From Mariniphaga sediminis (GTDB lineage Bacteria > Bacteroidota > Bacteroidia > Bacteroidales > Prolixibacteraceae): a stretch of DNA of 64,000 nt. The stretch spans positions 124,001-188,000 of the forward strand of contig NZ_QWET01000006.1 of assembly GCF_003573545.1 (NCBI RefSeq), read 5' to 3'. Below the pieces are notes generated by a model, which saw only the letters and a program-made list of their open reading frames with translations, ran no database searches and was not told the DNA's origin. This document shows positions 5,093 to 8,222 of this stretch, in pieces (positions within the stretch are counted from its first letter, which is position 1; every line of letters begins with the position of its first letter). The translations under genes and the position numbers were made by a program.

Positions 5093-5351
5093 ATGCAAAA
5101 GTTTGAACCATTAACACACGAACATTTCTACCATGATCTACAACCGGGGAATTAACAGTTGCAACATTTTTGCTGAAAACGAAAACTACGAATACTTTTT
5201 GCACCTGTACGATAAAAACATTTCCCCCGTAGCAGAAACGTATGCATGGGCGCTGATGAAAAATCACTTCCATTTTTTGGTGAAGATAAAACCGAAGGAA
5301 GAGGTACCGGCTGCAGCTGGTCATTCAAACCTGTCAGGTTTTATGAATTAA
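5093..5351 (+). pseudogene. REP-associated tyrosine transposase (RAYT) relic
   Basis: An opening ATG at 5093 encodes MQKFEPLTHEHFYH, the normal start of Bacteroidota RAYT proteins. The frame then shifts by one base near 5135 into IYNRGINSCNIFAENENY, which continues to MKNHFHFLVKIK with the HUH-nuclease HxH motif. The protein stops at FMN within a second REP copy. The catalytic Tyr region and the rest of the about 180-residue protein are missing. So the element carries one frameshift and a 3' truncation and cannot be active. It ends only a few bases before the thiamine operon promoter. Confidence 0.8.
5326..5341. repeat. REP core, second copy
   Basis: The near-perfect palindrome AACCTGTCAGGTT (5328-5340) matches the core of the inverted repeat at 5048-5079. 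It closes the RAYT relic on its right side and lies where the -33 region of the downstream promoter would be. Confidence 0.6.
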
Positions 5352-5364: not shown

Positions 5365-5373
5365 CCTTTCTGA

Positions 5374-5453
5374 TAGCACGGGGTGCCCACTCAAAAGTAA
5401 GGCTGAGATTACACCCGTTACCTGATTTGGATAATGCCAACGTAGGGATGCGG
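5374..5453 (+). ncRNA. TPP riboswitch (thi-box)
   Basis: The aptamer carries the conserved thiamine pyrophosphate riboswitch elements in order: GCACGGGGTGCCC, GGCTGAGATTACACCC, ACCTGATTTGGATAATGCC and CGTAGGGATGC. Short GCA/TGC ends can form P1. It is oriented with, and directly upstream of, the methyltransferase gene that opens a four-gene operon containing a ThiE-like enzyme. It should turn expression off when TPP is abundant. Confidence 0.93.
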
Positions 5454-5472
5454 TATACAATATTCCATTTTG

Positions 5473-5509
5473 CTCCATTCCTTTGGTTTATCCAGGCGAA
5501 TGGAGTTTT
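5473..5509 (+). terminator. Riboswitch expression-platform terminator
   Basis: CTCCATTC (5473-5480) pairs perfectly with GAATGGAG (5498-5505) and is followed by TTTTA. It lies between the aptamer and the first start codon, the right place for ligand-controlled termination. Confidence 0.6.
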
Positions 5510-5529
5510 AGTTTATAAACAACGTAAAA

Positions 5530-6249
5530 ATGGAAATTAGAAAAAAGTCTTTTGAATTAATTCCTCAAAACCAGCAAAACTGGCAAAACAGGCCGGAATG
5601 GTTTTTCAACCGCGAACACACCGATACGTATGAACAGTGGTACGAAGGACGCTACAAACGGGCCGAAGTGTGGCAAAAAAAGGTGATGGAACAACTGGTA
5701 TCCAAAGACACCCGGGTAAAAACCCTGCTTGAGTTTGGCTGCGGAACCACCCGCTTTACAAGGTGGTGGAAAGAAATCGGTATTGAAGCCACAGGCGGTG
5801 ATATTTCCCCGCTAATGTTATCGCAGGCCATTCATTTATTTGACGGAGACCTGGTTATGGCGGATTCGCATTACATGCCCTTCAAGGATCACACCTTCGA
5901 TTCACTGGCATTTATTACCACCTTCGAGTATTACAAAGATCCGGTAAAAGTCATCAGGGAAGCAGCCCGTGTAGCGCGGTACGGTATTGCAATGGGAATG
6001 ATGAACCGCCATTCAACCAAGGTAGTCAGAAGGCGGGTACAACAACTGTTCGGGAAAAACCCGTTTTATATTACCGCTACATTTTACACTCCTCAAATGC
6101 TGATAAAAATAATTCACCAGGCGTTGGAAGGAAGGGAATATTCGGTGGAGTGGTCGTGTACCGGACTGCCAAAGTGGTTTCCAGTGCAGCAATGGAGTTT
6201 GCCATACGGCGATTTTTTCGGGCTATATGTACGATTTAACGATGTTTGA
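5530..6249 (+). CDS. Class I SAM-dependent methyltransferase (TPP-regulated)
   Basis: A 239-residue methyltransferase of the UbiE/Methyltransf_11 type. Motif I is LLEFGCGTTRFTRWW, motif II is in EATGGDISPLMLSQA, motif III surrounds MADSHYMPF, and motif IV is FDSLAFITTFEY. The C-terminal half carries several aromatic residues and a GLPKWFPVQQWSLPYGDFFG segment. It is the first gene after the TPP riboswitch. The operon ends with a Trm112-like protein, a family known to stabilise or activate class I methyltransferases in archaea, eukaryotes and bacteria, so the two probably form one enzyme. The substrate is unknown; the riboswitch hints at thiamine metabolism. Confidence 0.85.
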   Translation: MEIRKKSFELIPQNQQNWQNRPEWFFNREHTDTYEQWYEGRYKRAEVWQKKVMEQLVSKDTRVKTLLEFGCGTTRFTRWWKEIGIEATGGDISPLMLSQAIHLFDGDLVMADSHYMPFKDHTFDSLAFITTFEYYKDPVKVIREAARVARYGIAMGMMNRHSTKVVRRRVQQLFGKNPFYITATFYTPQMLIKIIHQALEGREYSVEWSCTGLPKWFPVQQWSLPYGDFFGLYVRFNDV

Positions 6250-6250
6250 A

Positions 6251-7306
6251 ATGGATAAAATGCTGGGAAAAACAGACCGGAACCTGATAGAGCAGTTGAT
6301 ATGTGCCAAAAGCGGGCACAAAAGAAAAGAAGTAACAGTGGGGCCCCAATTTGGCGTGGATGTTTCCATTGTGAATTTACCGGGCAAAATGGCACTGGCT
6401 GCCACCAGCGACCCGCTGTCGCTTATTCCTTCGCTGGGGTTGGAAGAGTCGGCCTGGCTGTCGGTTCAACTTCTGGCAAACGACATGGCTACAACAGGTT
6501 TTGCCCCGCAGTATGCCCAGTTTGTGCTGAACCTTCCTGCCGGGTTTTCCAAAAATGACTTTAAAATTTACTGGGATTATATTCATACTTTTTGTGCCGA
6601 TATTGGCGTTGCTGTGACCGGAGGCCATACCGGTTTTATTGAAGGACAAAATTCCACCATTGCGGGGGGCGGAACTTTTTTCGCCATTGCCCCCGAAAAC
6701 CAGTTGCTTGTTTCCCGCAACGCACGCCCCGGAGACACCATTCTGGTTACCAAAGAGTGCGCTCTTTCCTCGGCTTCCATTCTTGCCCTGAGTTTTCCCC
6801 AAACAATCAAAAATAAGCTGGGAGTGGAAAATCACCAGAAAGCATGTGACCTTTTTTATAAAACAACATCGTTACTAGATGGACTGGTGGCAGTGGGACA
6901 CATTCCGCGGTACGATGATGTAACTGCCATGCATGATGTAACAGAAGGCGGGGTGCTGGGCGCTATTTACGAACTGGTCAGTGCTTCGGGTAACGGTGCA
7001 GTGGTGTACAACCATAAAATCCCTGTAGAGCAGGTTCAGCAAAAAATTTGTGGGTTGTTCGGCATAGATCCCCGCTATAGTATCGGTGCCGGCTCTATGA
7101 TTATTACCTGCAAAAAGGGCTCGGCGGCAAAAGTGATTGAACGTTTGACCGCAATAAACATCCCCTGCTGCGAGGTAGGCGAAATAAAAGAAAAGGAATC
7201 CGGCATTAAACTGGTAGAAAACAAAAAGAAAAAAGATCTGGAGTACAAAGAAGAAGACCCGTATTGGGCAGCATTTTTTAAAGCATTAAAAGAAGGATGG
7301 AAATAA
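6251..7306 (+). CDS. AIR synthase-related protein, HypE/ThiL-like
   Basis: About 352 residues of the PurM/HypE/SelD/ThiL ATP-binding fold. Seen are GVDVSIV (position of the GDDAAV motif), AATSDP, LLANDMATTGFAPQYAQ (like the ND-x-A-x-x-G segment), VTGGHTG and AMHDVTEGGVLGA, a HypE-like signature. I prefer ATG 6251, one base after the methyltransferase stop; ATG 6242 and ATG 6227 are also in frame and would overlap it. In a TPP-controlled operon with a ThiE-like gene, a thiamine-phosphate kinase (ThiL-like) role is attractive, but the overall sequence looks closer to HypE-type archaeal proteins. Function unproven. Confidence 0.8.
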   Translation: MDKMLGKTDRNLIEQLICAKSGHKRKEVTVGPQFGVDVSIVNLPGKMALAATSDPLSLIPSLGLEESAWLSVQLLANDMATTGFAPQYAQFVLNLPAGFSKNDFKIYWDYIHTFCADIGVAVTGGHTGFIEGQNSTIAGGGTFFAIAPENQLLVSRNARPGDTILVTKECALSSASILALSFPQTIKNKLGVENHQKACDLFYKTTSLLDGLVAVGHIPRYDDVTAMHDVTEGGVLGAIYELVSASGNGAVVYNHKIPVEQVQQKICGLFGIDPRYSIGAGSMIITCKKGSAAKVIERLTAINIPCCEVGEIKEKESGIKLVENKKKKDLEYKEEDPYWAAFFKALKEGWK

Positions 7307-7947
7307 TAAAAAACAGAAGAACCATAAAAGCGGGTGTTTACCTGGTTATTGATCCGGCAATGGACGAGGCCGTTCTGGTAAAAAAGCTGGAAGATGCCCT
7401 GCAGGAAGAAATAGCCGCGTTGCAAATCTGGGATCATTTTTTACCACACCAGAACAAGGCAAAACTGATGGAACAAATCAGCGCTCTGGGACACAAAAAG
7501 AATGTGCCGGTACTGATTAACAACAGATGGGAATACCTGAAAAGTACTCCGCTGGACGGCGTTCATTTCGACCAAATCCCGGAACATTATAACAAAATAA
7601 AACAATCTGTGAACCGGCCATTTATTGCAGGCCTGACCTGTAACAACGACCTGTCGGCTGTTCGCTGGGCAACCGAAAATAACATCGACTACATCTCCTT
7701 TTGTTCCATTTTTCCGTCAGCAACCGACACAAGCTGCGAACTGGTAAACTTTGACACCATCAGGGAAACAAGAAGAATAACATCCATGCCTGTCTTTCTG
7801 GCCGGAGGGATAAAGCCTGAAAATATAAATAAACTTAACGAACTGGATTTTGAAGGCGTGGCGGTAATATCCGGTGTGATGGGAGCTGATAGTCCTTCCC
7901 AGGCAATAAAAACATATTCGAAACAATTAAAAACGAAAACGACATGA
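7297..7947 (+). CDS. Thiamine phosphate synthase family protein (ThiE-like)
   Basis: A 216-residue TIM-barrel protein of the ThiE/TenI family. Family landmarks are the QIWDHF and VPVLINNR strands, DGVHFDQ, IAGLTCNN (the usual G-x-S position), DYISFCSIFPSATD, PVFLAGGIKPENI and GVAVISGVMGA (phosphate-binding loop). ThiE joins HMP-PP and thiazole-phosphate to thiamine phosphate. Several usual positions are altered (for example SFCSIFPSATD where canonical enzymes have FGPVFPT-x-TK), so it may be a divergent ThiE or a TenI-like relative. It overlaps the preceding gene by 10 bp and the next by ATGA. Confidence 0.85.
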   Translation: MEIIKNRRTIKAGVYLVIDPAMDEAVLVKKLEDALQEEIAALQIWDHFLPHQNKAKLMEQISALGHKKNVPVLINNRWEYLKSTPLDGVHFDQIPEHYNKIKQSVNRPFIAGLTCNNDLSAVRWATENNIDYISFCSIFPSATDTSCELVNFDTIRETRRITSMPVFLAGGIKPENINKLNELDFEGVAVISGVMGADSPSQAIKTYSKQLKTKTT

Positions 7948-8222
7948 GACAAATAACAGCAAACAAACTATGTTGTCCTTTTGACAAAGCAGATTTAAAC
8001 CTGACCGTAATCACGAAAGATACAGAAGAGAATATTATCGAAGGATTTTTTACCTGTAACGAATGCAAACGCCTTTACCCAATAGTAAAAGGAATTCCTG
8101 TAATGAACCCCGATGAATACCGGGAATTCAGACTGGAACAACCCTTACTGGAGCGATGGCAGTCGCACCTGAAAGGCAAAACAGTGGAGAACTTCCGGGT
8201 ACTTACACAAGAGAATAGCTAA
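7944..8222 (+). CDS. Trm112-like zinc-ribbon protein
   Basis: A 92-residue protein with a Trm112-type zinc ribbon: CCPFDKADL near the N-terminus and FFTCNECKRLYPIVKGIPVM, the standard second half of the domain. A short tail of charged and Trp-containing residues follows. Trm112 proteins are small partners that bind and stabilise class I methyltransferases. The last position in a tightly coupled operon opened by such a methyltransferase makes a complex likely (inference). The start overlaps the ThiE-like stop by ATGA. Confidence 0.85.
   Translation: MRQITANKLCCPFDKADLNLTVITKDTEENIIEGFFTCNECKRLYPIVKGIPVMNPDEYREFRLEQPLLERWQSHLKGKTVENFRVLTQENS

Follow-up and report, generated by a model that had tools for sequence, protein, structure and literature searches.

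Closest described systems

Methyltransferases in thiamine operons have precedents. In Paenibacillus, a putative TPP riboswitch precedes the bacimethrin/thiaminase I operon, in which a methyltransferase accompanies thiamine genes and which also encodes thymidylate synthase, deoxyribosyltransferase and thiaminase I (PMC5627462), all three missing from the four genes described below. A second precedent is provided by TPP-controlled salvage operons (ThiM-ThiE with TenA, ThiL, ThiD), which we found at 11 loci (L122, L127, L128, L158-L165), ten in genomes of the same family without the four-gene cassette and one in a genome carrying it. All 11 have a TPP aptamer and a ThiE-family protein, 8 an AIR-synthase-fold protein in the form of a ThiL copy, and 5 another methyltransferase as first gene. 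In contrast to the cassette, the enzymes of these operons are canonical, ThiM included (in L127, thiE scores 212 bits and thiM 296 bits); their methyltransferase is weakly similar to that of the cassette (28% over 64 aa, E 0.013), and nothing in the 11 loci matches the Trm112 or methyltransferase of the cassette at E 0.01.

Trm112 is an activator of translation methyltransferases (Trm9, Trm11, Bud23, Mtq2), whose substrates are tRNA, rRNA or protein. The archaeal complex of Trm112 with Hvo_0019 from Haloferax (6f5z) shares with our locus a Trm112 sequence match and a methyltransferase fold match to Hvo_0019, whereas the cassette pair is bacterial, TPP-controlled and accompanied by two proteins related to thiamine enzymes.

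The preliminary description of the locus knew of no step in a described thiamine pathway for which a methyltransferase with Trm112 is required. For the methyltransferase as such this has to be relaxed, given the bacimethrin operon (PMC5627462) and 5/11 salvage operons, but the set of four matches no described pathway found. Literature searches, including TPP riboswitch with Trm112 and AIR synthase with TPP riboswitch, returned no description of the cassette. Because it matches no described thiamine pathway found, it may be a so far unknown way of obtaining vitamin B1.

Arrangement of the cassette and its riboswitch

In the window (the whole stretch of 64,000 nt of DNA analysed), four closely packed genes encode, in this order, a methyltransferase, AIRS' (an AIR-synthase-fold protein), ThiE' (a ThiE/TenI-family barrel) and a Trm112 protein. 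They lie behind a TPP riboswitch aptamer (RF00059; 5369..5465, + strand), scored by cmscan at 63 bits (E 5.3e-10), above the gathering score of 54.3, which is the sole Rfam match above gathering score within the window and one of two TPP aptamers in the genome. The sequence that separates the aptamer from the first ATG folds into a terminator-like hairpin, CTCCATTC...GAATGGAG, with a T-rich run behind it (5473..5514, + strand), which is probably the expression platform; scored by eye, hairpin and T run were present in 19/24 loci (26 examined, 2 of them without an aptamer core found). With this aptamer and Pfam domains in all four products, the initial claim of a TPP riboswitch heading an operon of exactly these four protein types is supported, and since the NCBIfam scores are below the equivalog cut-offs, the labels 'ThiE-like', 'ThiL/HypE-like' and 'Trm112' are correct in the sense of resemblance.

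Loci were sampled with AIRS' and with the methyltransferase as queries. All four genes occur in the same order in 35/35 loci found with AIRS' and in 12/12 further loci found with the methyltransferase (E 1e-30), and a TPP aptamer lies ahead of each of them: in the former set, 32 were detected by a loose sequence pattern (8 of these confirmed by Rfam too) and 3 by Rfam, in the latter, 11 exceed the Rfam threshold and one, at 47.8 bits, falls below it. The pattern missed 3/35 cassettes and all 11 salvage operons, in each of which Rfam detects the aptamer. That the genes occur apart or without riboswitches in most genomes, which the preliminary description had named as refuting its view, was thus not observed in the loci sampled, and the recurrence of order and riboswitch in both sets argues against a chance arrangement.

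ThiE' and AIRS' differ from their canonical relatives

ThiE' (7297..7947, + strand; Pfam TMP-TENI, 1.4e-33) reaches 102 bits with the ThiE profile TIGR00693, below the cut-off of 145. It shares with ThiE/TenI the barrel family, Q43, H90, GGI and S192. When aligned to canonical ThiE rows (L127, L128), however, it shows QIW, INN/INE, HFDxIP and no TK in place of QLREK, IND, QxD and TKTD, the HMP-PP/Mg residues of ThiE; the R and the K, the two Mg aspartates and the lysine further on have thus been lost by replacement. Invariant in 36 sequences are W45, D92, N117 and two cysteines, C136 and C147. TenI thiazole tautomerase has a catalytic histidine; in an alignment without a TenI row and with a gap there, the corresponding place is N, G, T or S in ThiE' (N116; N in 22/36).

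The start of AIRS' (6251..7306, + strand; ORF open from 6227; Pfam AIRS_C/AIRS, 8.5e-19/1.5e-7) was placed at 6251, where the homologue L004 begins, at residue 9 of the open frame. Its AF2 model has a pLDDT of 88, and the top Foldseek match is HypE (3wjp, TM 0.76/0.81), followed by AaThiL. HypE carries a C-terminal cysteine, yet AIRS', for which HypE proteins are the best Foldseek matches, ends in GWK, without cysteine, and scores 78 bits with the HypE profile TIGR02124 (cut-off 252), so that a role as HypE for a hydrogenase is rejected. With ThiL it shares the fold and several aligned acidic positions, but it has GVD for GDD and GGHT for GGDT, and the ThiL residues D32, E54, H57 and D127 (numbered as in the top row of alignment A7) are not retained. 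It scores 72 bits with the ThiL profile TIGR01379, below the cut-off of 184, and cassette copies among the matches listed score 71-85 bits. AIRS' thus stands between HypE and ThiL and is neither canonical ThiL nor canonical HypE; a real ThiL is encoded besides it in the host genome. The initial view that both have a straightforward place in thiamine synthesis or phosphorylation is not supported, considering the residues lost in ThiE' and the canonical ThiL found elsewhere in 32/33 genomes carrying the cassette.

The genomic surroundings of more distant AIRS' relatives give a mixed functional picture. A relative adjoins a thiamine ABC binding protein in 3/3 Haloarcula plasmids, others lie beside cobalamin genes in Haloferax (2 examined, of 4 records listed) and a few kb from hydrogenase maturation genes in Acaryochloris, one examined in Halobacterium stands apart from both of these and offers no clear clue, and neither does the context of the Acetoanaerobium homologue.

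Thiamine genes of the carriers and proposed function

Among the 33 carriers, ThiC was found in 2, convincing ThiG in 1, canonical ThiE in 2, TPK (thiamine pyrophosphokinase) in 3 and ThiD over cut-off in 1, with another at 139 bits. The 47 operon-less relatives chosen for comparison contain thiE in 16, thiD in 14, TPK in 5 and thiL in 47 genomes, and thiC occurs in 17/96 operon-less family relatives. Carriers and relatives do not differ in thiC or TPK (Fisher p 0.15 and 1.0), whereas for thiE and thiD p is about 0.003, kinship ignored. ThiL, which makes TPP from TMP, is near universal (79/80 genomes). On these counts we reject the idea that the cassette strictly stands in for ThiC, TPK or ThiL, relatives without it lacking ThiC and TPK about as often; since they often are equally poor in thiamine genes, it cannot be equated with any one missing enzyme. 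In many of these genomes ThiL is present without a known TMP source.

Water contains little thiamine, and a large number of bacteria rely on salvage. We tentatively propose, with a probability of roughly 45%, that the cassette is a self-contained, mobile vitamin B1 acquisition module with Trm112-assisted small-molecule methylation, predicted to feed TMP to the host ThiL. That a thiamine compound is salvaged or modified, as suggested at the outset, remains the best reading. At low TPP the riboswitch would permit transcription of the four genes, and with TPP bound the terminator would halt it. The methyltransferase-Trm112 holoenzyme may then methylate a small molecule, AIRS', judging from its fold, may provide ATP-dependent phosphorylation or activation, and ThiE' could bind thiazole phosphate or TMP via the retained GGI/S192 side and perform a cysteine-assisted reaction without HMP-PP. 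A thiamine relative, perhaps imported by TPP-controlled TonB receptors, would in this manner be turned into TMP (or thiamine), and ThiL would convert the TMP into TPP. Carriers yielded 36 further TPP sites, of which 19 lie ahead of a TonB-receptor-like gene and 8 ahead of a PnuC-type transporter gene (with Pfam applied to examples). The salvage operons of the family and the thiamine neighbour of AIRS' relatives in Haloarcula also favour the proposal. Counting against it, 8/36 of these sites have no thiamine-looking gene downstream, two carriers (G109, G122) also possess ThiC and ThiE, and AIRS' relatives in Haloferax, Acaryochloris and Halobacterium lie in other surroundings. The presence of a portable TPP-controlled cassette in hosts that, ThiL aside, mostly retain few known thiamine enzymes points to a vitamer or route so far overlooked.

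The same gene counts bear on a different, unlikely explanation, according to which AIRS' is a missing kinase for imported thiamine (thiamine to TMP), ThiL finishes the synthesis, ThiE' is binding or regulatory and the methyltransferase pair accessory. Canonical ThiE and TPK are both absent from 28/33 carriers, 27 of which have ThiL over cut-off, so their TMP must come from somewhere, and the HypE/ThiL-like fold and the Haloarcula neighbourhood of AIRS' agree with a kinase. Yet 29/47 operon-less relatives likewise have ThiL but neither canonical ThiE nor TPK, so that another TMP source exists; furthermore, a single kinase would not require three constant partners, and the four ThiL residues named above are not retained.

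The methyltransferase and Trm112

The first gene (5530..6249, + strand) encodes a class I SAM methyltransferase, as seen from its Pfam domain (Methyltransf_11, 6.4e-16) and the SAM motif EFGCGT; with 113/239 positions invariant in an alignment of 36 sequences, it is the best-conserved part of the cassette. The last gene (7944..8222, + strand) encodes the Trm112 protein (Pfam Trm112p, 1.3e-7, 31.9 bits against a gathering score of 22), which stays below the NCBIfam Trm112_arch cut-off (61 vs 77 bits), has a partly conserved C-terminal extension in the alignment and matches the Trm112-type proteins 6zxw_H and 6f5z_C, the latter from the Haloferax complex, in the PDB. Their constant pairing (35/35 and 12/12 loci) and their families suggest a holoenzyme acting on a small molecule, which would link Trm112, familiar from translation methyltransferases, to cofactor metabolism. 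Bacimethrin apart, we know of no thiamine reaction needing this methylation.

Strong conservation of the methyltransferase would also fit a macromolecular substrate, which speaks against thiamine acquisition. That the pair modifies tRNA, rRNA or protein at low TPP, the other two genes separately adjusting TPP, seems distinctly improbable. Trm112's established partners and its PDB matches would agree with it, as would the human 18S rRNA guanine-N7 methyltransferase among the phmmer and Foldseek matches of the cassette enzyme; at E 1e-30, however, this enzyme was met only together with AIRS- and ThiE-like genes under TPP control (12/12 loci), and its top Foldseek matches are small-molecule-type or unassigned methyltransferases, the Hvo_0019-Trm112 complex 6f5z following at rank 17. 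Since the AF2 model of the methyltransferase alone is poor (pLDDT 65), these fold matches carry little weight.

To our knowledge, neither Trm112 nor AIRS' has a role in the bacimethrin pathway. We give little credence to bacimethrin-like antivitamin production or defence, in which the methyltransferase would make or disarm a methylated thiamine or pyrimidine analogue: the Paenibacillus operon supplies a methyltransferase precedent under putative TPP riboswitch control (PMC5627462) and a competition trait would fit patchy distribution and transfer, but thymidylate synthase, deoxyribosyltransferase and thiaminase are missing among the four cassette genes (flanks viewed by eye at 12 loci).

Coming back to vitamin B1 acquisition, one specific chemistry can be imagined, although the odds are strongly against it: a route to thiamine phosphate without HMP-PP, using a methylated pyrimidine vitamer as leaving group. 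The methyltransferase-Trm112 pair would methylate a vitamer of the pyrimidine side; one example is aminomethylpyrimidine, which arises from thiamine breakdown and is present in seawater (PMC10470507), and whose side-chain amine would be the target. AIRS' would phosphorylate or activate the thiazole side with ATP, and C136 or C147 of ThiE' would move the pyrimidine onto thiazole phosphate, giving TMP for ThiL. If true, SAM would stand in for the two phosphorylations by ThiD.

Distribution

The distribution of the cassette, with Gramella, Arenibacter and Cyclobacterium among its carriers, is patchy, and its tree conflicts with taxonomy, the copies of the window, of L038 and of Sunxiuqinia falling in three places although their hosts belong to one family. 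This disagreement suggests that the cassette probably moves as one block among Bacteroidota.

Composition and constancy of the cassette

The TPP aptamer at 5369-5465, the sole RNA above the Rfam threshold in the window, lies on the forward strand and is followed there by four tightly packed genes, which encode a methyltransferase (5530-6249), an AIR-synthase-fold protein, AIRS' (6251-7306, reading frame open from 6227), a ThiE/TenI-family barrel protein, ThiE' (7297-7947), and a Trm112 protein (7944-8222). The stretch from the aptamer to the first codon contains a hairpin and, behind it, T residues, together resembling a terminator; such hairpins were seen in 19 of 24 loci, judged by eye and without shuffling control (26 loci were examined). 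The unit looks bounded, because downstream the next long ORF runs on the opposite strand and a transposase fragment is found upstream. This 72-aa remnant (5133-5351), directly upstream of the riboswitch, is IS200/REP-associated transposase-like (Pfam E 0.003, under the cut-off).

Scanning genome contigs with the AIRS' alignment, whose two patterns derive from AIRS' so that wider relatives can escape, yielded 35 cassette loci, all in Bacteroidota, the only phylum that the scan covered well. The same four-gene order was found in each, with a TPP aptamer directly upstream (32 by pattern, three by Rfam); Rfam confirmed the aptamer in all eight loci checked among the 32, and likewise in all three whole-genome cassette copies. 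Three of the 35 (L038, L068, L069) apparently are contigs already in the family scan. An independent methyltransferase search (E 1e-30, 395 genomes of the phylum) gave 13 positives including the window's own, and the other 12 all carry the four genes in the same order, 11 with an aptamer above threshold and one at 47.8 bits. These counts rest on AIRS' and the methyltransferase as queries, and the two sets may share species. Within the window's family (Prolixibacteraceae), the cassette is present in four of 100 genomes; in 30 others the matches are weak, none above 44 bits.

In a concatenated-protein tree of 36 cassettes, the window groups beside Sphingobacterium (86/89, not strong), and L038, a contig from another genome of the window's family (G068), adjoins an Algoriphagus-Arenibacter group (99/98); Sunxiuqinia, of the same family, falls outside the well-supported clade (100/100) containing both. 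Two Arenibacter genomes have two cassette copies each. These whole-cassette duplicates are L039/L040 and L041/L044; in one pair the copies share a scaffold, separated by about 32 kb. Such positions and copies are what transfer of the cassette as a block would give.

The encoded proteins

The methyltransferase is the most conserved of the four, with 113 of 239 alignment positions invariant (AIRS' 80/359, ThiE' 25/216, Trm112 20/92). The Trm112 sequence matches two Trm112-type proteins of known structure, including one that belongs to the Haloferax methyltransferase complex 6f5z. AIRS' is predicted with a confident fold (pLDDT 88); the model ranks HypE as structurally nearest and ThiL next, and the protein scores far under the curated cut-offs of both. 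Compared with ThiL, several acidic positions are retained, but the GDD and GGDT motifs are not. A distant AIRS' relative (about 30%) occurs on all three Haloarcula plasmids examined (L072, L154, L155), each time next to, and divergent from, genes for a thiamine ABC binding protein and for a thiamine-binding protein.

ThiE' belongs to the ThiE/TenI family, with W45, D92, N117, C136 and C147 invariant in 36/36 and C115 in 34. We take the roles of ThiE residues to be those of the Bacillus enzyme. The canonical QLREK is QIW in the aligned rows, IND is INN or INE in most of them, and neither the second Mg aspartate nor the late lysine is kept; because of these changes, ThiE' is unlikely to use HMP-PP.

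Thiamine genes in carriers and relatives

Carriers of the cassette were sampled from the whole phylum (33 genomes) and compared with 47 cassette-less genomes of the window's family picked for completeness, so that p-values between these unlike sets are a guide only. Among carriers, thiC was found in two, canonical thiE in two, TPK in three, thiD in one above cut-off plus one at 139 bits, and thiL in 32, the exception being a genome 71% complete. Both thiC and thiE are present in G109 and G122, and G101 and G102 encode an extra ThiE-family protein (115 and 126 bits, under the cut-off of 145). ThiG matches occur in 21 carriers, 19 reaching Pfam's low cut-off of 23 bits; only one is full-length (358 bits), and the partial ones (at most 35.1 bits) we take to be other barrels. 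The 47 relatives have TPK in five, thiE in 16, thiD in 14 and thiL in all; thiC was found in 17 of the family's 96 cassette-less genomes. Neither canonical ThiE nor TPK is encoded in 28/33 carriers and 29/47 relatives. It follows from these gene counts that the known thiamine route is closed to most carriers, with its last step retained, and that relatives without the cassette often share this lifestyle.

Across both samples, ThiL is above cut-off in 79 of 80 genomes, 57 of the 80 being without canonical ThiE or thiamine pyrophosphokinase above cut-off; TMP import or a novel thiamine kinase are candidate TMP sources there.

Possible role of the cassette

The cassette is TPP-controlled, portable and constant, and its hosts retain ThiL; together this points to delivery of TMP or thiamine from an imported compound. 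We give such a salvage or new-route reading slightly less than even odds (about 0.45). For a simple kinase role, four genes are too many. Since both carriers and relatives often have ThiL but neither canonical ThiE nor TPK, the TMP source is a general puzzle in these bacteria, which weakens the argument for the cassette as that source. The literature searched contained no description of the four-gene cassette. Methylation in a TPP-controlled operon has a described precedent in bacimethrin (PMC5627462), but the other special genes of that operon are absent from the cassette's four. As categorically new chemistry remains hypothetical, we rate the cassette among TPP-controlled thiamine acquisition operons.

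Other TPP-controlled units

In the window's genome, the other TPP site lies ahead of a TonB receptor gene. Among the first 20 other carrier sites, 16 precede TonB-receptor-like genes and three a PnuC-type transporter with an acyl-CoA-dehydrogenase-like protein encoded behind it, one being unreadable; 16 further sites comprise three TonB-like, five with the PnuC pair and eight without a thiamine-looking gene, seven of these below the Rfam threshold. The one above it, L170 (G127:C95:199791-199899), scores 54.7 bits, just over the threshold. Four TonB receptors were checked with Pfam (the window genome's own, L089 and L092 from carriers, L110 from a relative), the rest by eye. Units pairing the PnuC-type transporter with an acyl-CoA-dehydrogenase/flavin-monooxygenase-like protein occur in eight carriers (L091 172-1762, L094, L100, L166, L171, L177, L178, L181); the second protein of L091 is HsaA/SfnB-like in NCBIfam, far under cut-off, with no Pfam match at 1e-4.

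We further examined 11 TPP-riboswitch ThiM-ThiE salvage operons, ten from cassette-less genomes of the window's family, including one of its genus (G052), and one from carrier G122. All have the aptamer and eight a ThiL copy; at E 0.01, no match to either the methyltransferase or the Trm112 protein of the cassette turned up in any of them. In five of the 11, the first gene encodes a second methyltransferase, only weakly similar to that of the cassette (L122 176-886 and L127 175-885, both in reverse-strand numbering; L161 1319-2017, L162 1083-1790, L165 1126-1830), which would connect a further methylation, one with no known role, to thiamine salvage.
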